DNA from: Roseburia sp. | Lineage (GTDB): Bacteria; Bacillota; Clostridia; Lachnospirales; Lachnospiraceae | Reading direction: 5' to 3' | Length of the DNA: 49,273 nucleotides | Assembly: GCA_017549185.1 (NCBI GenBank) | Contig: JAFYVJ010000042.1 | Span: 1 to 49,273, forward strand | Shown: positions 27,255-44,660 of the stretch, piece after piece | How positions within the stretch are numbered: position 1 is the stretch's first letter | How the letters are laid out: each line of letters opens with the position of its first letter | Program-made: the position numbers and the translations under genes | The notes under the pieces: model-generated | Database searches by the model: none | Told to the model about the DNA's origin: nothing | Seen by the model: the letters and a program-made list of their open reading frames with translations, nothing else

Positions 27255-29030
27255 TTATTCGTATAACTCATCTGTCTCGTGCTCCAAAATCATCACTTCT
27301 GCCTGGTGATCTAACGCATCTCTATGTTCATAATCAAACAACACATAAAGCGGTTCCTCCAGATATTTCGGCAATGCCACAATTGTCCTCTCCTGCTTCT
27401 TCGGAAATCGATAATGAAATGGTTCCACATGAGAAAGAGAGCCCTTTTTACAATACTGTTTTGTTATCTGCTTAAATTCCGAAACATTCGGAGCCCAATT
27501 CGGTCTACTCTTGCAATTTTCTCGATAATATAAATCGAATGTAAGGCTCTCTTTAAGCATTCCGCAAATTTGCTCTTCCTCCCCCACATCGCAGCACAAA
27601 GCAGTTATCACATCTGCTCTCTTGCGTTGAAAACATGCTCTAATAAATTCAAGTAAAATTTCACAACGTCGGATTCTAGAATGGCTCATCACCAAATATC
27701 CCCGCTCTTCGTAAAACTCCCCAAACTCCTGAAACATATAAAACGGGCTATCAAACAATGCTTCCATTAATTTCATAGTTACTTCAAACTGACCACTATT
27801 ATAGTAAATCTCAAGCATCTCTTCCACCTGCTTGATTTTCAAGATCTCCTCGAAGCTGAGCCACTTCGTCTGCATCACCTCATATGGTGCCGTAGAATGA
27901 TATACCATTCCATACTCTGTTGCATGCTCAAACATATAAGATCCTTTCAACACTTTTAAAAATCCAAGCTGTAGCTGATTCGGTTTTAACTCATATATCT
28001 CATCAAACGACCTTCCAAATGTAGCATAATCCTCATACGGAAGCCCCGCAATTAAATCCAAGTGTTCATGAATATTTCCTGCTGCCTGTACCCGCTTTAC
28101 GATCTCCTTCAAACGTTTCAAATTCATGGTGCGGTGTATCTCCGTAATCGTTGCATCATTTGTAGACTGCACGCCTATTTCTAGCTGAATAAGTCCTGGT
28201 CGCATGGAAGTAATCAACTCTAATTCCGCCTCATTTATCAAGTCTGCTGATACTTCAAAATGAAAATTGGTAATACCATTATCCTGCTCTTTGATAAACT
28301 GCCATATCGCCATTGCATGTTTATGGTCACAATTAAACGTGCGATCCACAAATTTTACCTGTGGCACCTTATTTTCAATAAAAAATGCCAATTCTTTTTT
28401 TACCAATTCTAAATCCCGGAACCGTAATTTTTTATCCACAGAAGACAAACAATAACTGCAATGAAACGGACACCCTCTGCTAGATTCATAATAAATGATA
28501 CGATTTTTAAAATCTTCAATCTCATCATAACAAAATGGGATTTCGCTCATGTTCATTGGTAATTCCGGTGCAATCACATGCAATCCCCCAGTTTCTTGGT
28601 TCCAGAATGCAATACCTGATAAACTCTGCAAATCGCCTTTTCCATTTACATAATAACTACACAGATTATAAAAAGTCCTCTCACCTTCGCCCATCATAAC
28701 GCCTGTCACTTCCGGATGACTTTCCATAAACTGTTCAACCTCATATGAAACTTCCGGTCCTCCTAACCAAATAGGTACCTCAGGGCATATTTTATGAAAT
28801 TCCCGAATAATCTCTTCTACATAACTAATATTCCATATATAGCAGGACATACATAATACATCCGGCTTCTGTTTATATATCTGCTCTAAAATATAATCCG
28901 CCCGATTGTTAATCGTATATTCTCCAATAACAATGTGTTCTGCAAAATCCTTTGCATAAGCCTTTAAACTATACACTGCCAAATTAGAATGAATATATTT
29001 CGCATTCATGGCCGCTAATAATATCTTCAT
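27255..29030 (-). CDS. B12-binding-domain radical SAM protein (DUF4080 type)
   Basis: A protein of about 591 residues. Residues 1-140 form a cobalamin-binding-like Rossmann domain, starting MKILLAAMNAKYIHSNLAV. The radical SAM core has SRGCPFHCSYCLSS, whose CxxxCxxC cysteines bind the 4Fe-4S cluster. The last 150 residues match DUF4080. The start at 29028-29030 is preferred over in-frame ATGs up to 48 bases earlier because the family begins there; GGAAGGG lies 11 bases upstream. Proteins of this type are common in Clostridia, with unknown substrate; the neighbouring nth and exonuclease genes do not explain it. Confidence 0.9.
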   Translation of the reverse strand: MKILLAAMNAKYIHSNLAVYSLKAYAKDFAEHIVIGEYTINNRADYILEQIYKQKPDVLCMSCYIWNISYVEEIIREFHKICPEVPIWLGGPEVSYEVEQFMESHPEVTGVMMGEGERTFYNLCSYYVNGKGDLQSLSGIAFWNQETGGLHVIAPELPMNMSEIPFCYDEIEDFKNRIIYYESSRGCPFHCSYCLSSVDKKLRFRDLELVKKELAFFIENKVPQVKFVDRTFNCDHKHAMAIWQFIKEQDNGITNFHFEVSADLINEAELELITSMRPGLIQLEIGVQSTNDATITEIHRTMNLKRLKEIVKRVQAAGNIHEHLDLIAGLPYEDYATFGRSFDEIYELKPNQLQLGFLKVLKGSYMFEHATEYGMVYHSTAPYEVMQTKWLSFEEILKIKQVEEMLEIYYNSGQFEVTMKLMEALFDSPFYMFQEFGEFYEERGYLVMSHSRIRRCEILLEFIRACFQRKRADVITALCCDVGEEEQICGMLKESLTFDLYYRENCKSRPNWAPNVSEFKQITKQYCKKGSLSHVEPFHYRFPKKQERTIVALPKYLEEPLYVLFDYEHRDALDHQAEVMILEHETDELYE

Positions 29031-29053
29031 AATAACCATGCCCTTCCAATACC

Positions 29054-29111
29054 TGCAAACTTTGGGCCGCAGGCACAAATTTGCGTGTGAAAAATTTATT
29101 TTTCACACTAC
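29054..29111. repeat. two-hairpin intergenic element
   Basis: The first stem is GCAAA(c)TTTG-GCC with GGC-CAAATTTGC (one bulge, one mismatch); the second is GTGTGAAAAAT-TT-ATTTTTCACAC, perfect. The order and core sequences (CAAACTTTGG, TTGC, TGAAAA...TTTTCA) match the element at 22303-22352. It lies directly 5' of the radical SAM gene. Confidence 0.5.
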
Positions 29112-29414: not shown

Positions 29415-30314
29415 TTAACTGGTAATGGCATCTACCGTTCTTGCCATCGTTATGATACGATCAATCTCTGCACCTTCTACAGGTGCTTCACCATAACTAA
29501 TATGAGCACCATCCTCACCAAATCCCCCCAGCAAACGTTTGCCCGGTTCTGCCATTTTTTCAATGGTATAATACCCTGCTTTTCTGGCAATTGGATCATA
29601 AGTAATATAAATACGGTAACACAGTGGTACTACTATACCATTCTCTGGAAAATCTACTCTGACTAATGTCAAATCCGGTGCAATCTCTAATGCCATAACC
29701 GAATAATCTGCCTCTGAATACGGATATAATTTAGCCTCTTTATAAGCCTCTGCAAAAATCCGATTAATAAATGCTTCTTTTTCTTCACACAGCTGATTCA
29801 CAAAACTTTCTTTTTCAGCAAACAAACGCTTTGGCAGAATCCCAAACTCTACCTGCTTCTTCACGAACACACCAAACTGCTCTGGTGTCATTTTCACTTG
29901 TTTCGTCTGTAATGCCTTCTGATCCGCCTCGTGAAGCTTTTCTACTAATTCTTTTTTCAATACCAAATTCTGCGAAAACGGATTTATAACCATACCAATC
30001 ACATTCTGCTCCGATTTTACCACAATATCATTGCAGGCAGGAAAAGGTACGCTAAGAATTGCCTGACTTTTAGGCTCAGTCGGAATATGTTCCTTACTAG
30101 TGTACGCCGCAAGGAAGGTCTCTCCATTCCCACTCTTTAAAAAGCATGGCATCGGCTGGTTTGGGGCCTTTAACATTGCCGGCACCAGCAATTTGGTTGG
30201 CCGCAACAAATTTAGAACAACTCCTAGATTTTCCTTCGTAGGTTCTGTAATATATCCTTTTATAGCCTCTTCTAATTTATCATTCGTAATCTCCATCGTT
30301 ACCCTATTATCCAT
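29415..30314 (-). CDS. SseB-like domain protein
   Basis: A protein of about 299 residues with two-part structure. The first 120 residues fit the SseB N-terminal domain (LLRPTKLLVPAML ... ETFLAAYTSKEHIP ... VIGMVINPFSQNLVLKKELVEKL). After a helical linker comes a second alpha/beta domain (ALEIAPDLTLVRVDFP, then YRIYITYDPIARKAGYYTIEK). The start MDNRVTME at 30312-30314 follows AAAGGG; an ATG 27 bases earlier is less likely. SseB-like proteins in Firmicutes are of unknown role. The gene starts 23 bases after the HK-DegV gene ends. Confidence 0.8.
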   Translation of the reverse strand: MDNRVTMEITNDKLEEAIKGYITEPTKENLGVVLNLLRPTKLLVPAMLKAPNQPMPCFLKSGNGETFLAAYTSKEHIPTEPKSQAILSVPFPACNDIVVKSEQNVIGMVINPFSQNLVLKKELVEKLHEADQKALQTKQVKMTPEQFGVFVKKQVEFGILPKRLFAEKESFVNQLCEEKEAFINRIFAEAYKEAKLYPYSEADYSVMALEIAPDLTLVRVDFPENGIVVPLCYRIYITYDPIARKAGYYTIEKMAEPGKRLLGGFGEDGAHISYGEAPVEGAEIDRIITMARTVDAITS

Positions 30315-30337
30315 ATAAATTCCCTTTCTAGCACTTA

Positions 30338-33022
30338 TCACTTCTCTATTTTAGGATTCACATAATATGCAATTCCCACCGTTTTAGCCCCCACACTACA
30401 AGCATTGGTAAAAGACGACTTTTGCATAATAATTCTCTTAAACGGCAAAAAACGTAACAATTCACTTCGCAAGAATTCCTGTTCTTTTACTGTACATCCG
30501 GTATGGGTTACTATGACTGCATCCGTATTAATTTTACTCTTGCGGTGTAAATGGAATCGAATGAAGCCTTTCCATGCCGTCTCGATATTTCCTGCAAAAA
30601 CTCCTATCAGACGTACCTTACTTTTTACCGGTGCAATCACAGGTCGTAACATAAACCATCTGCAAATATTCGCAACTGCCTGACTAGTGCGTCCCCGCTG
30701 AGCAAAAATATCTGCTGACGGCATAATATACTTCGACACAACTCTGTTTTTCATAGACTCTACCATGTCACAGATTTCCTGACTCTTATATCCTTCAGCT
30801 GCCAAAGAAGCTGCATATAGTACCACAAAGGCTTCTCCACATGAAATATGCCCTGCATCAATCACCTGCACATGGTCAAAACCTGCCGCTGCCGCTACTG
30901 CCACACTATAACTTCGACCTGTATTTTTTGCCATGGAAATATGTATCACCTGCTCTGCCTGAGTCAAAGCATCTGCAAAAAATTCCTCATATTCTTCTAC
31001 CGAAGAACTATCTCCATAAGCGTTAATCGCACCTTCAAAGATATACTGTGCCAAATGATCTGAGTTAATCTCTTTTGTATCCGCAAAACGTCCATTTTCT
31101 GTTTTAATATAAAGATACATTACCTTAATATCATATTTTTCAATCAATTCTACCGGCAAATCACTTACACAATCCGTAGTAATATATACAGTCTTACGTT
31201 TTCTACCGGATATTCTTTGAATCTCATTTTCTTTTTTATTCTCTGGAAGCACATTTTTCCGATATTCCACCAACTCATTCGGCAGGAATCGTAGAATAAT
31301 CTCCTCTAATTTCTTGCTATCAATTGGCTTTTCCAAATACCCATCGAAGCGGGCATCTTTCATTATACGCTGAGTTTCCTCTAGCGTATTTGCAGTCATA
31401 AGAATAACTGCTGTATCACGGCACAAGCCATTCTCTTGTGTCCTCAGACGTTTTAATGTCTCCTGTCCGTCCATCCCCGGCATCATATAATCCATCAATA
31501 TTACATGATATAATCTCTGTCTAGTCTTCTCTAAACACTCTTCACCGCTATTAGCTATATCTACTTCTACTTTTGTGGCCTGTAAAAGTTTTTTCACTAC
31601 CAGCACATTCAAATCATTATCATCCACAAGAAGAACTTTTGCTGTTGGTGCTTCGAATAATTGATGATAAACCTCTACCTCTTCCGGAGACGTTATTGTA
31701 AATTTAGTATCACCAATCGGCGTATCATCTACAATCTCCTGTTTTAATTCAATCGTAAATACCGTTCCTTTTGTATAAATACTGTCTACCGTAATTTCAC
31801 CACCCATTAAATCTAACAGCTGTTTTGCAATAGACAGACCCAAACCGGTACCTTCTACACGAAGATTATTTTTTTCATCCACACGGCTAAAATTTTTATA
31901 CAAATGAGGAATGTCTTCTTTTCGAATTCCTATCCCTGTATCTGCCACAGAGATTTTTAGTGACAATTGATTATCTTCTGTTCGTTTCCCATTTGCCGAT
32001 AAAGTGACGGACCCTTCGTTGGTGTATTTAACCGCATTTGCCAAGATATTAATCAAAATCTGTTTTATACGCTTTTCGTCCCCAATTAATTCCATTGGAA
32101 GATTATCATCTACTTCAGCGTAAAGTTCCAATCCTTTTTCCTGCACACTAACTCGAACCATATCAAGCAATTCTTCAATCATATTCTGTGTTTTATATGG
32201 TGCCGGGAAAATTTCCATCCGCTGACTTTCGATACGAGACAAATCCAAGAAATCATTTACCAGGCTAAGTAACATCTTACTGGCACTCTTAATATTCCGA
32301 GCATATTCAGCAGTAGTTCCTGTAGGATTTTCTCGCAGAATCATCTCATTCAAACCCACAATTGTATTGATTGGTGTACGAATTTCGTGACTAACTCTGG
32401 CAAAAGAAGCATTTTTTGAATTACTAGCTTCTTCTAATGCTTCGTTCTGTTTCAATACAGTTGCACGCTCTCCATCATACAAATACATAAAAAACAGAAT
32501 GATAAAACCGCCTGCCAAACCGGTTGCCAAAATCGCAAACAATGAATCTACATAAATAGCCTCTCTACTTTCCATTGGAACAACAAATTCCGGATATTTA
32601 TAGGCAACATAATACGTCGCCACATCTATCAGCACACTAATTATCAGAAAAAAAGCCAGCTTTTTTCCTTTAAACATCATAAAAAGATAAAAGATACCTA
32701 ACACAAACCAAACACTTGCCCCACTCTCTATCGCCCCGCAGAAAAAAAACATGGTCGGAAAAGCAACTCCATTAATAGCAATCGCCACGAGCACAGCTGC
32801 AGCATCCAACTTATTAAATTTAAATGTTAACAAAACACCTATCAAAATAGATACAAACATCACTAATAACGGCGGAAGTGTTTCAACAAGATTTGCAATA
32901 CCAAAGCTTACCGCAATAGCAATGATCGACAAAACAAATCCCACCATAATGATTAGACGGAAAATTCTCTCACGCAACGAATACTTTTCATTAAAAATAT
33001 GCTCTGTTATAAACTTTCTCAA
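30338..33022 (-). CDS. hybrid histidine kinase with REC and C-terminal DegV domain
   Basis: An 894-residue fusion. About seven membrane helices (20-185) with no large outer loop; HisKA with SHEIRTPIN (about 208); HATPase with NILANAVKYTNE, DTGIGI and GTGLGL; REC (about 465-585) with LLVDDND, the phosphoacceptor Asp in VILMDYMMPGMDG, and the Lys in LEKPID. From about 607 a complete DegV fold begins (TVYITTDCVSDLP) and runs to the end. DegV (FakB) proteins bind fatty acids. By eye two residues that contact the carboxylate are altered: the LSG loop reads TGR (KNTGRSYS) and the usual HxGPG reads SVGAK. The gene overlaps the upstream kinase gene by 4 bases, so both are probably co-translated. Confidence 0.9.
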   Translation of the reverse strand: MRKFITEHIFNEKYSLRERIFRLIIMVGFVLSIIAIAVSFGIANLVETLPPLLVMFVSILIGVLLTFKFNKLDAAAVLVAIAINGVAFPTMFFFCGAIESGASVWFVLGIFYLFMMFKGKKLAFFLIISVLIDVATYYVAYKYPEFVVPMESREAIYVDSLFAILATGLAGGFIILFFMYLYDGERATVLKQNEALEEASNSKNASFARVSHEIRTPINTIVGLNEMILRENPTGTTAEYARNIKSASKMLLSLVNDFLDLSRIESQRMEIFPAPYKTQNMIEELLDMVRVSVQEKGLELYAEVDDNLPMELIGDEKRIKQILINILANAVKYTNEGSVTLSANGKRTEDNQLSLKISVADTGIGIRKEDIPHLYKNFSRVDEKNNLRVEGTGLGLSIAKQLLDLMGGEITVDSIYTKGTVFTIELKQEIVDDTPIGDTKFTITSPEEVEVYHQLFEAPTAKVLLVDDNDLNVLVVKKLLQATKVEVDIANSGEECLEKTRQRLYHVILMDYMMPGMDGQETLKRLRTQENGLCRDTAVILMTANTLEETQRIMKDARFDGYLEKPIDSKKLEEIILRFLPNELVEYRKNVLPENKKENEIQRISGRKRKTVYITTDCVSDLPVELIEKYDIKVMYLYIKTENGRFADTKEINSDHLAQYIFEGAINAYGDSSSVEEYEEFFADALTQAEQVIHISMAKNTGRSYSVAVAAAAGFDHVQVIDAGHISCGEAFVVLYAASLAAEGYKSQEICDMVESMKNRVVSKYIMPSADIFAQRGRTSQAVANICRWFMLRPVIAPVKSKVRLIGVFAGNIETAWKGFIRFHLHRKSKINTDAVIVTHTGCTVKEQEFLRSELLRFLPFKRIIMQKSSFTNACSVGAKTVGIAYYVNPKIEK

Positions 33023-35769
33023 ACTTCGTTATCTCCCTTCTGGACATTCTCTTTCCATTTTACAATAACGTCATAGGCAGACATATAATCCGACATCTCC
33101 ACTTTCCGTCTAGCTGTATCTGCAATTTTTTTCATTGGCTGTCCCATATAGCTGCAACCTTCCATTTTATCAATGATAAGAATCATCTTTTCGCTGTCAA
33201 AATCAAACATAGCAGCATCTAAGTCTATGAGATAAGACTGTAATACTTCTTTTTCAATCTCCGTACATTCCGACACATCGATTTCTTCCTCCACTGGAAG
33301 ACCTAACGCTCCCCTTATCTCATTCAATACTCTTACATATTCTGTCACCATGCCACTATGGCTAACATTAATCCAGGCCACATCACCACGTTTACCAGCA
33401 AGTTCTAACTGCTTCGCCAGTTCTGATAGCGGCAACGCCCCTACACTCATCATCATACTCTTTAACGCATGCACTTCAATCGTATAATTCTTCCAGTCTT
33501 TCACCGCAAAAAGTTTTTCTATTTTCGCAATATGCTCATTCCCATTTCTACAATACTGTTCTAATATCTCCAGATAAGACTCTTTCCCACCACAATACAA
33601 AAGACCCTTTTCTACATCCAGACTACCTACCAGCAGCTTCTCTGATTTATCTTCTGAAATGGTCTTATCTTTCCCTACTTCTTCTTTTTTCTCACTATCT
33701 GATATATACTGAATTTTTTCTTTTGGTATATTTCTACGCAACAAACGGTCTAATACGGACACTTCTATCGGTTTCTCAATAAAATCATTAAACCCTTCCT
33801 GCATAAACATTTCACGGCTTCCTGCAATTGCGTTAGCTGTTACCGCAATAATTGGCACCTTCTTATAATAAGAACCTACCTTATTACGAATTCTATGGAA
33901 TGTCTCTACTCCATCCATTTCCGGCATCATGTGATCCATAAATACAAAATCAAATGTTTTGCTTTCAATTTTCTCCAAAGCTTCCGGTCCATTAACTGCA
34001 GTACACACCTTAATCTGATAACGTTCCAGCAATCCTTCAATTACCTTCAAATTCATCCAGTTATCATCCACTACCAGCACCTTTGTCTCCGGTGAAACGA
34101 ATCGCATTACTGTAGCATGACTACTTCCTGTTCCTTGTTTATACGCCTCATTCAAAACAGCTGCTACTGGTAATATATAAAATGGTTTTGGAATTAAAAC
34201 AATGTTTGGATTCATAACAGAATCCATGTCTACCGCATCTATAACAACCGCTACCTTAATCTTTTCGCTCAGTTCATCAAAATACTCCATTTCCTCTTTA
34301 TATTCCGTCAAACTGATAAAAATATGTGTAAACTGTTCCGCACCACAATGCCGTTTAAATGACGTCATGTCGGTACACATTCGACAACGAATCTGTAATT
34401 GTTCAACTATATGAGCAATCGTACCTATGTAATCATCTCTCATCCCTGCAATATCAAACTGCTCTACATTTAGATAAACCCCTACATTTAGTTTTTCCGG
34501 ATTTTTCACAGAAACAATCGGCTGTTCATCTACCACCTTCTGTGGAATTACAAACTGAATAGTAGTACCCTTTCCATACTTACTTTTTACAGTAATAATA
34601 CCACCCATTTTTTGAACAATCGTTTGAGAAAGGGCTAGCCCCAAACCAATACCACCTTCTTGTCTGGTACGCTTCGTATCCACTTGACTAAAACTGCTAA
34701 AAAGTTTTTCTAAGTTCTCTTCTTTAATACCAATACCAGTATCTGTCACTCTTACACAAAGATTCATTCCGTATGATTCTTTTCTACCCGAAACACTGAT
34801 TTTTACACTTCCCTCTGACGTAAATTTCAACGCATTACTTACAAAGTTCATGATAACACGACGTATTTTCTTCTCATCACCGTACAATCCTGACGGCAAA
34901 TTCGCATCACAATCCACCACAATCTCAATTGGCTTTTTATCTTTGATAGCCAGCGACATATTAATAACATCATTAATCGTAGAAGCAATATTATATACCT
35001 CATTTTCAATGATCATTTTGCCAGACTGCAATTCTGAAAAATCCAAAATGTCCACTACCACAGAAGTCAGATTCCGGCCTGCCATCTGGATAGCTCTTAA
35101 GCTACTTCTAATTCTCGCCGGGTCATCTTCCGTCAATGCCACCTCACTCATACCGCAGATGGTATTAATCGGTGTACGAATCTCGTGACTGACATTTGCC
35201 AAAAAATCGTCTTTGCTTCGTTCTGCTTCTTTTAATTCTGAAATCATCTCAGTGGCCCGTTCATCCACTTTATTCCTCTGTCTAACCCAAAAATGAATAA
35301 TAAATTCAATAATAACAATATTAGAAAATAACAGAAACGTCTGATAGCCTGCAATCATATCGTCTCCAAAAATCGCATCATGTCCCCATACACGATTCAG
35401 CACCAGTAGAACTAATGCAATATCCGTGATATACAACAACTCTACATCACTTAGCATCCCCGTAATAACAACCGTAGCAATTACAATCACTGTAAGCAAA
35501 GTAAGTTCTTCTGTCCAGAATCCATATACTACCACACATAGTGCTGTCAAAGAAACATATACCGCTTCCCTTCCTTTTAAACTCATTCTTTTCGTCAGAT
35601 ATACAAGCCAGTTTATGCCGACACTTGCAAACATGATAACTGCGATCCAATTACTCCAGTCATACATAATAAAAGAGCCTGCTGCCCCCATCTGATAAAT
35701 ACTGAACATACACAATATAAATATCTCTTTTATGCGTTCTACGTCTCTTGCCACACCCTGTTTTCCCAT
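33019..35769 (-). CDS. hybrid histidine kinase, HK-pseudoREC-REC-Hpt
   Basis: A membrane sensor kinase of about 916 residues. Six or seven N-terminal helices end near residue 165; HisKA has NVSHEIRTPIN, and HATPase has NFVSNALKFTSE, DTGIGI and GLGLALS. A first receiver-like domain lacks the phosphoacceptor (FISLTEY where D is expected). The second REC is intact (VLVVDDNWMN, FVFMDHMMPEMDG, FIEKPIE). The C-terminal Hpt keeps its histidine (VHALKSMMMSVGA). ATG 35767-35769 with GGAG upstream is preferred to a GTG at 35784. A terminator and a palindrome separate it from the REC gene upstream. With an Hpt it can pass phosphate to free REC proteins such as the one next door. Confidence 0.9.
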   Translation of the reverse strand: MGKQGVARDVERIKEIFILCMFSIYQMGAAGSFIMYDWSNWIAVIMFASVGINWLVYLTKRMSLKGREAVYVSLTALCVVVYGFWTEELTLLTVIVIATVVITGMLSDVELLYITDIALVLLVLNRVWGHDAIFGDDMIAGYQTFLLFSNIVIIEFIIHFWVRQRNKVDERATEMISELKEAERSKDDFLANVSHEIRTPINTICGMSEVALTEDDPARIRSSLRAIQMAGRNLTSVVVDILDFSELQSGKMIIENEVYNIASTINDVINMSLAIKDKKPIEIVVDCDANLPSGLYGDEKKIRRVIMNFVSNALKFTSEGSVKISVSGRKESYGMNLCVRVTDTGIGIKEENLEKLFSSFSQVDTKRTRQEGGIGLGLALSQTIVQKMGGIITVKSKYGKGTTIQFVIPQKVVDEQPIVSVKNPEKLNVGVYLNVEQFDIAGMRDDYIGTIAHIVEQLQIRCRMCTDMTSFKRHCGAEQFTHIFISLTEYKEEMEYFDELSEKIKVAVVIDAVDMDSVMNPNIVLIPKPFYILPVAAVLNEAYKQGTGSSHATVMRFVSPETKVLVVDDNWMNLKVIEGLLERYQIKVCTAVNGPEALEKIESKTFDFVFMDHMMPEMDGVETFHRIRNKVGSYYKKVPIIAVTANAIAGSREMFMQEGFNDFIEKPIEVSVLDRLLRRNIPKEKIQYISDSEKKEEVGKDKTISEDKSEKLLVGSLDVEKGLLYCGGKESYLEILEQYCRNGNEHIAKIEKLFAVKDWKNYTIEVHALKSMMMSVGALPLSELAKQLELAGKRGDVAWINVSHSGMVTEYVRVLNEIRGALGLPVEEEIDVSECTEIEKEVLQSYLIDLDAAMFDFDSEKMILIIDKMEGCSYMGQPMKKIADTARRKVEMSDYMSAYDVIVKWKENVQKGDNEV

Positions 35770-35802
35770 TGTTTCTCTCTCCACTTTCGGGTTTTTAATA
35801 CC

Positions 35803-35876: not shown

Positions 35877-36269
35877 TTAGATTAATCCCAGTTTTCTAAG
35901 TGCCTGATCAAATCGTTCCTGATCAATTGGCTTTCCGGAATAAATCGTACAGCCAAGTTCAAATGCCATTTTCACATTCTTCTCTTCATTCAACGCAGTT
36001 GTCATAATAACCTTTACTGCCTTCTCTTCTGGAATGTTATTTTCCTTTTCCAAATTACGAATGCCCACCAATGCCTGATAACCGTCCATTACGGGCATCA
36101 TAATATCAAGGCATACCAAATCATACGGTTCTCCATCCTCTAATGCCATCAAAAAAGCATCTACTGCTTCCATTCCATCTACTGTCACATCACATTCACC
36201 ATACTTAGATAAAAAATTGGACATATACTTTCTAGTGACAAAATCGTCCTCCGCCAATAAAATTTTCAT
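35877..36269 (-). CDS. single-domain response regulator (CheY-like)
   Basis: A 130-residue free-standing receiver. Acidic pocket EDD (residues 7-9), phosphoacceptor Asp in LVCLDIMMPVMDG (about 56), the switch Thr in VIMTTALNEE, and Lys in SGKPID. There is no output domain, so it passes signal by binding or as a phosphate shuttle. The loop NLEKENNIPEEKAVKV is longer than in CheY. It lies 18 bases after the REC-HD-GYP gene and before the terminator. Confidence 0.93.
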   Translation of the reverse strand: MKILLAEDDFVTRKYMSNFLSKYGECDVTVDGMEAVDAFLMALEDGEPYDLVCLDIMMPVMDGYQALVGIRNLEKENNIPEEKAVKVIMTTALNEEKNVKMAFELGCTIYSGKPIDQERFDQALRKLGLI

Positions 36270-36287: not shown

Positions 36288-37274
36288 TTATTTCAATTGT
36301 CTATATATTTTTCTAAAAATTACAAAAATGTCCGGATTAAATTTTACTCCTGCTTCTTTCTGCATAATTTCAAAAATCTCTTCTACACTGTACTCCTTAT
36401 CCGAGCCATCCCGCATCGTCAATCCACAATATGTACTGGCAACTATCATAATCTGGGCACTAAGGGGTATCTCTTCCCCCCTTTTACCATTCGGCTGACC
36501 ACTGCCGTCCCAATTCTCTCTCTTAGATTCTACGATATCAATGGCCATCTGTATAAACTCATTATACTCTTCAATTTTAATTATGTCACTAAGAATAGCC
36601 AGATTTCCCCATTCATAAAGAGGTGCTGCCAGTTCCAATGTCTCGATATATTTATCCGAAATCAAATCCCCGTACTTTGGTGACAGTTGCATTGCCTCAG
36701 CCAAAATCCTGGCATTGTAACTTAAACGTTCCATTTGAGCTTTATCATAGCCATCACTTTCCTGCACTGCACGCAGTAATGTATAAAGCACATTTTTCTT
36801 TTCCTGCTCCATCTGCCTTAGTTGTTCGCTAATAGAAGTCTGTAATTTCCGATTCATATCTGCCAGATTCTTACTAGTCTCAGAAAGTTTTAAATGAATA
36901 CCTATTCGAGCCTTTACTACCTCTGGAATGAACGGCTTAGTTATGTAATCTTCTCCGCCCAAATTGAACCCTTTTACAACATCTGCAGGATCATCAAATG
37001 CCGAAATAAAAATAATCGGAATATCTCTGGTATTTACATTTTCTTTCATAATTTGGCAAAACTCATACCCATCCATTTCCGGCATTGCCACGTCTAAAAC
37101 TATTAATTGCGGCTTGTGCCGCTCCACAAGTTTCAATGCCTGCAAACCATTTTCCGTCAAAACCGGTCGATATCCCATCTCTGTAATAATGTCTCGCAAA
37201 ACAAATCGATTTGTCTCTACATCATCTACAACCAAAATGAGCGGTGTCACTTTATTTTTCTGTTCTTTTTCCAT
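36288..37274 (-). CDS. response regulator with degenerate HD-GYP-like output
   Basis: A 328-residue two-domain regulator. REC (1-125): LVVDDVETN, the Asp in LIVLDVAMPEMDG, and Lys in ITKPF. A helical linker leads into an HD-GYP-like domain (about 165-328). The GYP end is recognisable (ENWDGSGQPNGKRGEEIPLSAQIMIVAS) but reads GQP, and the metal-binding HD/K core is lost: APLYEWGNLAIL stands where AxLHDIGKIGIP is expected. It should therefore not hydrolyse c-di-GMP but may still bind it or act by protein contact. It overlaps the upstream kinase gene by 23 bases, so the two are a matched pair. Confidence 0.87.
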   Translation of the reverse strand: MEKEQKNKVTPLILVVDDVETNRFVLRDIITEMGYRPVLTENGLQALKLVERHKPQLIVLDVAMPEMDGYEFCQIMKENVNTRDIPIIFISAFDDPADVVKGFNLGGEDYITKPFIPEVVKARIGIHLKLSETSKNLADMNRKLQTSISEQLRQMEQEKKNVLYTLLRAVQESDGYDKAQMERLSYNARILAEAMQLSPKYGDLISDKYIETLELAAPLYEWGNLAILSDIIKIEEYNEFIQMAIDIVESKRENWDGSGQPNGKRGEEIPLSAQIMIVASTYCGLTMRDGSDKEYSVEEIFEIMQKEAGVKFNPDIFVIFRKIYRQLK

Positions 37275-38691
37275 ACCACAATTCCTTTTCTAATGTCTCA
37301 AAAGCTTTTGATGCCTTATTATAATCTCCCTTTTGTACGGCCATCTTCAGACGTAACACAGCACTTTTTATCTCCTGTGGAGCTGATCCTGTTAGTTGCT
37401 TGATAGATTCCATAAACATTTCTGCTTTTTCCCAATTCTCCATATCCAAACTCAGAATCAACTTCTGCATTTTCTTCTTCATTTCTTTTATGTTCTCTTC
37501 CGAACCAAATTCTCGCAAATGATCTTCTTCTAATACTGCTATCGAAGTTACCGCCGCAAAGCCTGCCTTCTGTGTATCTTCCATCTGCATAGCTTTTTTC
37601 TCACTCTGCAAAATATCCACCCAGATATAAAAAGAAAACATCGTTCCTTTTCCAGGTTCACTCTGCACATGAATATTGCCATCCATTAATTCGACAAGCT
37701 GCTTACTGATATTTAATCCCAAACCGGTTCCCCCATATTTTCTAGAGATAGATGCATCCACCTGCGAAAAACTTTTAAACAACTTATCCTGTCCTTTTTT
37801 ATCAATACCAATTCCAGTATCCAATACAATGAAAAACAACTCTATTCTATTATCCATCTGGGCTGTTTTCACTACTTCTACCGAAATTTTCCCTACAGAA
37901 GTAAACTTACAGGCATTGGACAATAAATTATTCATAATCTGTTCGATACGTAATTCGTCACCAATGATATATTCCGGAATCTCCGGAGATATCGTCATAA
38001 AAAAATCCAATCCCTTTTCTGTAATCTTACCAAGATGATTTGACTTTACATAATCCATCATTTCTCTAAAGCAGAACTTGCGTTTCTCAATAGTAAATTT
38101 CCCTGCTTCTAGTTTGGAAAAATCCAATATATTATTAATCAGAGCATGCATATCCTTACATCCACGCTCAATCAGCCTTAATTTCTGTAGACATTTCTCA
38201 TCTGTCTCTTGTTCCAATAATTCTAACGTATTTCCCAAAATTCCATTCACTGGTGTACGTAGTTCATGCGTAACATTTGCTACAAATTCTGTCTTAACCT
38301 GTTGTGCTGATTCTGCCTCCTGCTTAGCTTGCCCAACCCTTTTTTCGAGTACCTGTCGCTCACTGAGGTTATAGCCTTGACACAAATATTGAGCCGGATT
38401 ATCCTGCACCTTAGTAAACGCTACCTGAATTGGAAAACATGTCTGATTCTTTCGGTATGCCATAATCTCCTTGTTTTCGCGTGTGAAATTTTTCTTCATC
38501 AAAAAAGAACCTGTCATGGTCTGAAATTCGTTGGGAAAAATATCTTCGATATAATGATTTAAAATATCTGTACCAAATTCCAATTGTTCCATCGCTGCAT
38601 GATTTGCATATACAATTTTTCCATCATCTCCAAACACCAGCACAACTTCTAATGCATAGTCTAGTGCCAAATGAAATATCCGCTCTTCCAT
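37252..38691 (-). CDS. PAS histidine kinase with degenerate C-terminal Hpt-like tail
   Basis: A 479-residue soluble kinase. PAS (about 5-115) with FGDDGKIVYANHAAMEQL; HisKA with NVTHELRTPVN; HATPase with NLLSNACKFTSV, DTGIGI and GTGLGLNIS. The last 90 residues form a helical bundle of Hpt size in which the phospho-His segment reads SIKQLTGSAPQ in place of the HxxKG pattern, so it should not carry phosphate. No membrane segment is present, so the signal is probably cytoplasmic. Start at 38691, preceded by GAGGAAGAG. It follows the HAD phosphatase gene by 33 bases. Confidence 0.9.
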   Translation of the reverse strand: MEERIFHLALDYALEVVLVFGDDGKIVYANHAAMEQLEFGTDILNHYIEDIFPNEFQTMTGSFLMKKNFTRENKEIMAYRKNQTCFPIQVAFTKVQDNPAQYLCQGYNLSERQVLEKRVGQAKQEAESAQQVKTEFVANVTHELRTPVNGILGNTLELLEQETDEKCLQKLRLIERGCKDMHALINNILDFSKLEAGKFTIEKRKFCFREMMDYVKSNHLGKITEKGLDFFMTISPEIPEYIIGDELRIEQIMNNLLSNACKFTSVGKISVEVVKTAQMDNRIELFFIVLDTGIGIDKKGQDKLFKSFSQVDASISRKYGGTGLGLNISKQLVELMDGNIHVQSEPGKGTMFSFYIWVDILQSEKKAMQMEDTQKAGFAAVTSIAVLEEDHLREFGSEENIKEMKKKMQKLILSLDMENWEKAEMFMESIKQLTGSAPQEIKSAVLRLKMAVQKGDYNKASKAFETLEKELWYGKRTEK

Positions 38692-42513: not shown

Positions 42514-44622
42514 TTATTCACTATAATTTCTGCTTACATATTCTTTGATATCTTCACGATCCTGTGGCATTCTACATCCCACAATATACTCTCCATCATT
42601 ATTGGAAGAACGGATAATACAACCTTCTAATTCTTTTCCTTTTAATGCACTAAAATCTTTTACCTCTACATTAACATTCTTGCCCTTTGCATTTGCAAAT
42701 ACTTCATCCCGACTTGCAAATGCAAATCCATTCGCACTAATATTCACCATTCTGCCATGGCAAGTCTGACCGTCTTTTATCTTAATAACACAGACATTAC
42801 CAAGTGGCATTCTAGGATATTTTCTTCGGTTATACACTTTTGGATTTGTTTCTACAGTAAGTTTATATTTACCACTTTCACCGCTCTTTGCCATGGACAT
42901 TTTAACTGTATCCCAACAATATAATACATTATCCACTATTATACGTAACTGACATTCTGTATGTTTACTGTTTTTATCAATTACATCGCGCTTATCATCC
43001 TCAAGAGTTACATATACACGATTATCTACACGTTCTACTACCTCACCGATATATTCGTTCTTACTTACTCCGGCAAATGAAACTGCAACCTTCATGCCAA
43101 TTCTTACATCATGCACTCCCATGAAACCACCAACACCAAGTTCCTCCATCAGGTGTCCTACAACCGTTTCAATGTCGTTTGTACTCTTAGCACTCTCAGC
43201 ATACTTATTCAGCATCTCTTTGGTCGTGAGTTCCGCACGATTAATTCGCTCTGTCATCACTTCCATTAAGTCACATACCTCATGCATATTATTTGTAAGC
43301 GTTTTATTAGAGGTTTCTACTTCTTTTACTGCATTATCAACCGTCTTAATATTTACACCCAACATTTGTGCATCATTAGTAATATTCGTAACACTTCGTT
43401 CTACATTAGATACTTTTTCGATATTATCCTGAATCAATGCAACTGTCTCTAAAATTGCTGCTAACATCTTCTGAGATGTTTCCTCTAAGTTCGCTAACGC
43501 ACTCATAATTCTTCCCGAAGATGTCTTTGTACCATTACTCAATTCACGAATCTCATCTGCAACTACCGCAAAACCTTTTCCCGCTTCTCCGGCTCTTGCT
43601 GCTTCAATAGAAGCATTCAGTGCTAAAAGGTTTGTCTTAGATGAAATACCTACAATTGCACCGGTTTCTGTTTTCACATTTTCGAATTCTTCACGGAAAC
43701 CATTTAAAACTTTCTCAACTTCTGAGGAAAGCTCTGCCATCTTATTCGTAGTATCCACTACTGCTCCCAATTCTTCGGCACTAGTATTCGCATGCTCTAC
43801 AGACGCCTCAATAAGTGTTACCACTTCTTCCATCAACACAGCTACATTCGTCACCTGATTATCAATCGAATTGGTCATATCCATAGATGACATTGTTCTT
43901 GCATTTAATACACTATTTTCATTCGCAAGCTCCCGCATATCTGTTACCACATTTTCTGCTCCCATGCGGTTTTCATCTGCAAGTTCCCGAACAACAGTCA
44001 CACCATCTACCACTTCATTACTTGCACCTTTTACTTTTTCAACCGTCTGTACTACTCTCTCAAGATTTCCTTCAATAGAGCTTGTCAATGCGCCATCAGA
44101 TTCCAGCAAATGATTAATCGCCATAATCGTACATACATAACAGCATATAACAATCGCAAACTGCAATGCACAATCAGCACTAGAAACGAATTCCATCATT
44201 CCCTTTACTCGACCTTTGTATACGTTACTACTAATCAATACAAAAAGAGTAATCCACATCATAGCCTTGATAAGCTTCGGATTCTTGTACAAAATTAAGA
44301 TCGAAATCAATGGCAGAATAAACACATAGGATATTTCATCCAATGCCGTCCATGCAATAAAACCAAAGAACGTCAGATATCCCAATCCTAATACCCACTT
44401 ATACTCCGCAACCGCCATACCCTTTACTTTCAAAAGAATGGTACCAAACAAATACTCCAGCCAACCAACCACACTAAATATAACATAACTCTTCATGCTG
44501 ACACCGCCAGACATTGCCGTGATTCCATAATAGGCGGTTACAATGAACATCAACATCAGCCACGTCGTTCCTGCTCGCCGGTTTGCCTTCGCATCAAAAT
44601 ATTTTTGGTCATACGTCTTCAT
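42514..44622 (-). CDS. methyl-accepting chemotaxis protein with C-terminal PilZ domain
   Basis: About 702 residues. The N-terminus has six membrane helices (about 15-175) and no extracellular sensor loop. The MCP signalling hairpin follows, with its tip [28 protein letters not shown] cut here only by a few family-typical changes. After residue 490 comes a YcgR-N-like beta domain, then PilZ with RKYPR (RxxxR) and NISANG (D/NxSxxG), the c-di-GMP-binding residues. Start at ATG 44620-44622 with GGAG upstream, rather than TTG 44637. No cheA or cheW is in the window. It likely links c-di-GMP to the chemotaxis array or acts as a c-di-GMP receptor in its own right. Confidence 0.92.
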
Positions 44623-44660
44623 ACATTTTCTCTCCAACTTATTTTATACCGTTGGATAAT

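Follow-up and report, generated by a model that had tools for sequence, protein, structure and literature searches.

A FakB-fold DegV domain in a hybrid histidine kinase paired with a second kinase: a candidate lipid-sensing phosphorelay

The 49,273-nucleotide stretch of Roseburia sp. DNA analyzed here (the window) encodes a membrane hybrid histidine kinase which, judged from its sequence and a predicted structure, is a sensor kinase in which one domain resembles a known fatty-acid carrier in shape. Known DegV proteins carry fatty acids and deliver them to FakA. On the best reading of the gene arrangements, the DegV kinase would be half of a two-kinase, one-Hpt relay, a partnership absent from the preliminary description of this DNA. 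We consider it fairly probable that the fusion and its partner act as sensor kinases in one and the same phosphorelay and that DegV serves there as a FakB-derived sensory domain outside the fatty-acid-kinase (Fak) cycle; the DegV kinase is probably a lipid-type sensor. The fusion, its partner, and the adjoining signaling genes lie at the following positions.

30338..33022, minus strand: TM-HisKA-HATPase-REC-DegV hybrid kinase (the fusion), 894 amino acids
32486..32965, minus strand: membrane part of the fusion, residues 20-179, about six hydrophobic helices, from hydropathy only
32225..32413, minus strand: HisKA domain of the fusion, phospho-acceptor H212
31736..32083, minus strand: HATPase_c domain of the fusion
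31295..31636, minus strand: receiver domain of the fusion, D511
30362..31189, minus strand: DegV (FakB-fold) domain of the fusion, residues 612-887
33019..35784, minus strand: partner hybrid kinase, HisKA-HATPase-REC-Hpt with a hydrophobic N-terminal part, 921 amino acids
33385..33570, minus strand: Hpt domain of the partner, HALKS motif
35877..36269, minus strand: single-domain receiver, candidate relay target
36288..37274, minus strand: REC-HD response regulator, HD-GYP part degenerate by eye, candidate relay target
37252..38691, minus strand: PAS-HisKA-HATPase kinase, upstream end of the signaling cluster

The preliminary description had proposed a histidine kinase-REC-DegV fusion with intact H-box, ATP-binding, and receiver residues and a FakB-like DegV part, and these proposals hold. 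All domains were detected, including the HisKA phospho-His, the HATPase_c motifs, and the REC phospho-Asp that mark a hybrid histidine kinase; the DegV domain scores above the curated cutoff of its profile (PF02645), and its predicted model has the whole FakB fold. Across 48 full-length rows, the catalytic residues show no variation. The membrane part carries a family motif, FPxxFFxxGGxxGG..WF, and has no Pfam match. Domain search and an Hpt profile detected no C-terminal Hpt in the window fusion; the partner gene, which overlaps the fusion gene by 4 nt, has one, the sole Hpt of the two-gene pair. DegV had also been said to occupy a position where an Hpt can stand, and 10 loci encoding HK-REC-DegV-Hpt bear this out.

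The DegV two-kinase module recurs in gut and rumen bacteria, from which 131 distinct phosphorelay-linked DegV domains were analyzed. In a family sample of 299 genomes, mostly one per genus, at least 46 genomes among the matches listed have a DegV match within an open frame of 700 amino acids or more. In the window's genus, DegV matches at E < 1e-90 were found in 26 of 60 genomes, and the 37 DegV matches of this survey lie in frames of 419 to 923 amino acids, the shorter ones including DegV-Hpt and contig-end pieces. In a class sample of 391 genomes, the listed matches above 310 bits come from the window's own family and from a single genus of another family, the latter represented by three genomes (L212 to L214) that share the gene order of the module and have a REC-GGDEF gene ahead of it. 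Furthermore, 478 stretches encoding a DegV relative of some kind were retrieved from a collection of 84,980 species genomes; the best 80 of the 478 were examined, so that the loci are biased toward close relatives. Isolate records among the 80 are those of Agathobacter ruminis JK623 and Bacterium D16-51. At 70% completeness, the draft genome of the window leaves room for an assembly artefact or a chance join of two genes, but the fusion is shared by many genomes, isolate records, and a genome listed with one contig, so the likelihood of such an origin is practically negligible.

Neighboring genes were annotated with phmmer, and removal of identical or contained DegV sequences left 139 distinct loci. 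A whole HK-REC-Hpt gene lies next upstream on the same strand (open frames of less than 130 amino acids without a hit being passed over) in 98 of the 114 HK-REC-DegV loci without an Hpt of their own. The others have a cut or split HK-REC-Hpt gene (6 loci), a contig end (5 loci), something else (2 loci), or an HK-REC gene called without Hpt (L075, L076, and L078). The 10 HK-REC-DegV-Hpt proteins follow an HK-REC gene without Hpt in nine cases and a contig end in one. An Hpt profile built from these loci was applied to the 118 pairs in which both genes are whole: Hpt is present upstream only in 105 pairs, in the DegV protein only in 10, in both in none, and in neither in 3. In one of the Hpt-less pairs (L047), a split has detached the DegV frame, with HK-REC-Hpt two genes further up; of the other two, L064 stands at a contig start and L072 is a fragment. 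The phospho-His is present in 122 of 124 Hpt domains inspected. Within the 105 pairs, the upstream Hpt-like domain lacks the phospho-His in L075 and L078, and in both the adjacent downstream gene, cut by the contig end in L078, encodes an Hpt with HALK. Fisher's test of this one-Hpt rule gives a P value of 3e-12 with relatedness ignored; on a tree of 66 scored rows, own-Hpt and upstream-Hpt undergo three changes each and thus few independent ones, and in an independent-pairs test the pairs are too few for significance to be attainable.

The association is also seen from the partner's side. With the C-terminal part of the partner as query, hits were obtained in 49 of the 60 genus genomes, and 24 of the 28 best hits (E values up to 1.6e-23, the window included) adjoin a DegV match when the lists are compared by eye, the exceptions being G708:C104, G681:C131, G702:C2, and G679:C257. 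Below the best 28, the hits are mostly other Hpt proteins with no adjoining DegV. The best hits that adjoin DegV kinases have in common a tail following the Hpt (residues ~830-921 of the partner). Between HATPase and REC, residues ~430-560 of the partner resemble, by eye, a degenerate receiver.

Several loci deviate from the common architecture. DegV stands alone behind HK-REC-Hpt in L054, L082, and L085. A genome of the window's genus (G292) encodes a DegV-Hpt protein behind HK-REC and before REC-GGDEF (L079:4090-5331, minus strand; 414 amino acids from the first start codon in an open frame of 419). In L076, whose gene runs to the contig end, DegV is N-terminal, preceding the membrane part and the kinase. 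In a DegV tree of 88 rows built by a quick method, the phosphorelay-linked domains form a clade of 77 rows (support, 100), within which L054, L082, and L085 diverge first and the remaining 74 rows, almost all of them fusions, are grouped together (support, 93). This branching order fits, with moderate support, an operon partnership that preceded the fusion. Separately, L095:4781-7375 and L103:4733-7360 encode DegV fused to a kinase-like protein with no H-box and no recognised receiver, and no kinase gene lies within two genes of either; they are possible pseudokinase receptors.

In FakB, the His of HxGPG and the Ser of LSG are carboxylate contacts. The window DegV has Ser876 at the His position, Gly702 at the Ser position, and Arg778 at the position of FakB1 Arg173, located via alignment to 6mh9. 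Both contacts are thus altered in the window, as previously noted, although neither loss is peculiar to it: at the His position, the 131 linked domains have Asn in 118 cases and His in 1, while the Ser-to-Gly change is frequent and not general (Gly in 68, Ser in 47). The window's Ser870 position, Gly in FakB, is Ser in 127 of the 131; Gly878 is invariant (131/131); and Arg occupies the Arg173 position in 51. For comparison, seven references (three own-genome DegV proteins and four solved structures) have His in six cases, Arg in all seven, and Gly at the 870 position in six, and five relatives without a seen kinase link have His in four cases and Asn in one (L177, cut by the contig). FakB R173A is reported to exchange fatty acid yet to be inactive in the kinase (Fak) assay (PMC9136124). 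The lost constraint on Arg173, taken with the conserved residue that replaces the His, argues that the binding site has been retained for another purpose. Because the window protein keeps the Arg (Arg778), it may itself have a role with FakA.

Candidate outputs are found in front of the pair. In 116 loci, the gene before the partner encodes an HD and/or GGDEF domain (49 loci), an MCP (25 loci), a small REC (16 loci), another kinase (6 loci), a longer REC (1 locus), or none of these (19 loci); in 22 of the 131 linked loci, some of them near contig ends, no searched regulator type lies within four genes. By eye, the HD-GYP metal-binding motif seems partly lost in the REC-HD regulator L117:308-1378 and largely lost in that of the window (36288-37274, minus strand), which makes an active phosphodiesterase unlikely there and a c-di-GMP output weaker for the window. 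A 707-aa protein near the cluster (42514-44637, minus strand) combines an MCP signaling domain with a PilZ (c-di-GMP-binding) domain, a further chemotaxis/c-di-GMP link. Directly downstream of the fusion is an SseB-type gene (29415-30341, minus strand), which likely starts at ATG 30314 and not at the overlapping GTG; among the annotated loci, only the window has such a gene within two genes. A B12-binding radical SAM protein with DUF4080 is encoded at 27255-29078 (minus strand).

From these arrangements we infer the following course of signaling. The fusion kinase and its partner would each autophosphorylate and pass phosphate to their own receivers, and both would then use one Hpt, in the window that of the upstream partner. 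The Hpt would in turn phosphorylate stand-alone receivers, e.g., the neighboring REC and REC-HD proteins, with outputs of the c-di-GMP or motility type. DegV would act as a FakB-derived cytosolic ligand-binding domain that has departed from the Fak cycle, since many linked domains lack the residue for FakA phosphotransfer and nearly all have another residue, mostly Asn, in place of the headgroup His. Its ligand would most likely be a long-chain acyl lipid, and whether the domain is filled or empty may bias the kinase/phosphatase state or the REC-to-Hpt step.

The preliminary description had left two options for DegV, a sensor (of a different lipid or an acyl-phosphate) or an output controlled by REC. 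If it were an output, phosphorylation of the fused REC would control the loading or presentation of fatty acid by DegV and so feed lipid metabolism, as would suit the position of DegV directly after REC in the commonest form and the presence of FakA (TIGR03599) in 26 of 30 genus genomes, which indicates that an ordinary Fak system exists in the lineage. However, DegV also occurs without a fused REC, alone or as DegV-Hpt, and even before the kinase, and the Arg needed for FakA catalysis is found in fewer than half of the linked domains. We therefore favor the sensor and regard an output role as quite unlikely.

Two other explanations concern the ligand. DegV might now be ligand-free, its role being dimerisation or docking with the partner kinase or the Hpt; its constant companion is a kinase, and in the lineage of the window the polar residues of the headgroup site have drifted (Ser876 and Gly702). 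Yet the replaced site is itself conserved, with its prevailing Asn, the Ser at 870, and the invariant Gly878, as expected for a specific site that has been kept, and the predicted fold is whole; a docking role thus seems unlikely, though with an appreciable chance. Conversely, the fused DegV might still work as a normal FakB, presenting FakA with fatty acid while the kinase localises it to the membrane. The FakB fold and the window's Arg778 agree with this, whereas the Arg is lost in 80 and the His in 130 of the 131 linked domains and the R173A variant fails in the Fak assay, making this explanation very improbable.

Going beyond the sensory domain preferred here, we tentatively suggest, as possible though less likely than not, that Lachnospiraceae and a second family of the class have a family of phosphorelays that sense lipids. 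In this scenario, a carrier of the FakB type would have become a cytosolic lipid receptor through a single recruitment, encoded at first by its own gene behind HK-REC-Hpt and later fused to a second kinase; the relay would couple the acyl-lipid state to c-di-GMP/chemotaxis regulators, and the change from His to Asn would have adapted the headgroup site to a ligand different from the free fatty acid destined for FakA. If DegV binds lipid, it would directly link lipid state to motility- or c-di-GMP-type regulators in gut commensals, and the fusion and its partner are a concrete gene pair for testing a lipid-sensing relay.

The fusion shares the HisKA-HATPase-REC order with hybrid kinases of the BarA/ArcB/TorS type, and its best NCBIfam scores are to BarA, TorS, and ArcB, all far below the cutoffs. 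Unlike these, it has DegV in place of a C-terminal Hpt, and the two kinases have one Hpt between them, in the adjacent gene. Many-to-one relays such as LuxQ-LuxU offer a comparison for a shared Hpt. The window DegV shares its fold with FakB/DegV proteins (Staphylococcus aureus FakB1 and FakB2, Thermotoga maritima TM841, and Bacillus subtilis DegV) and differs from them in being, like its relatives, fused or operon-linked to a phosphorelay, in the replaced headgroup His, and in that the Arg for FakA catalysis is not generally conserved. It is clearly more distant from the FakA C-terminal domain (6w6b), which is reported to be without the tunnel-forming insertions (PMC9136124). Multidomain proteins can include a DegV domain, as another study notes (PMC12288450); among titles and abstract openings, no published description of a DegV domain in a histidine kinase was found. 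In S. aureus, SaeRS is reported to be a kinase system whose activity depends on fatty-acid kinase (PMC5539427); in that system, fatty-acid kinase and sensor kinase are separate, whereas here the FakB fold lies within the kinase chain.
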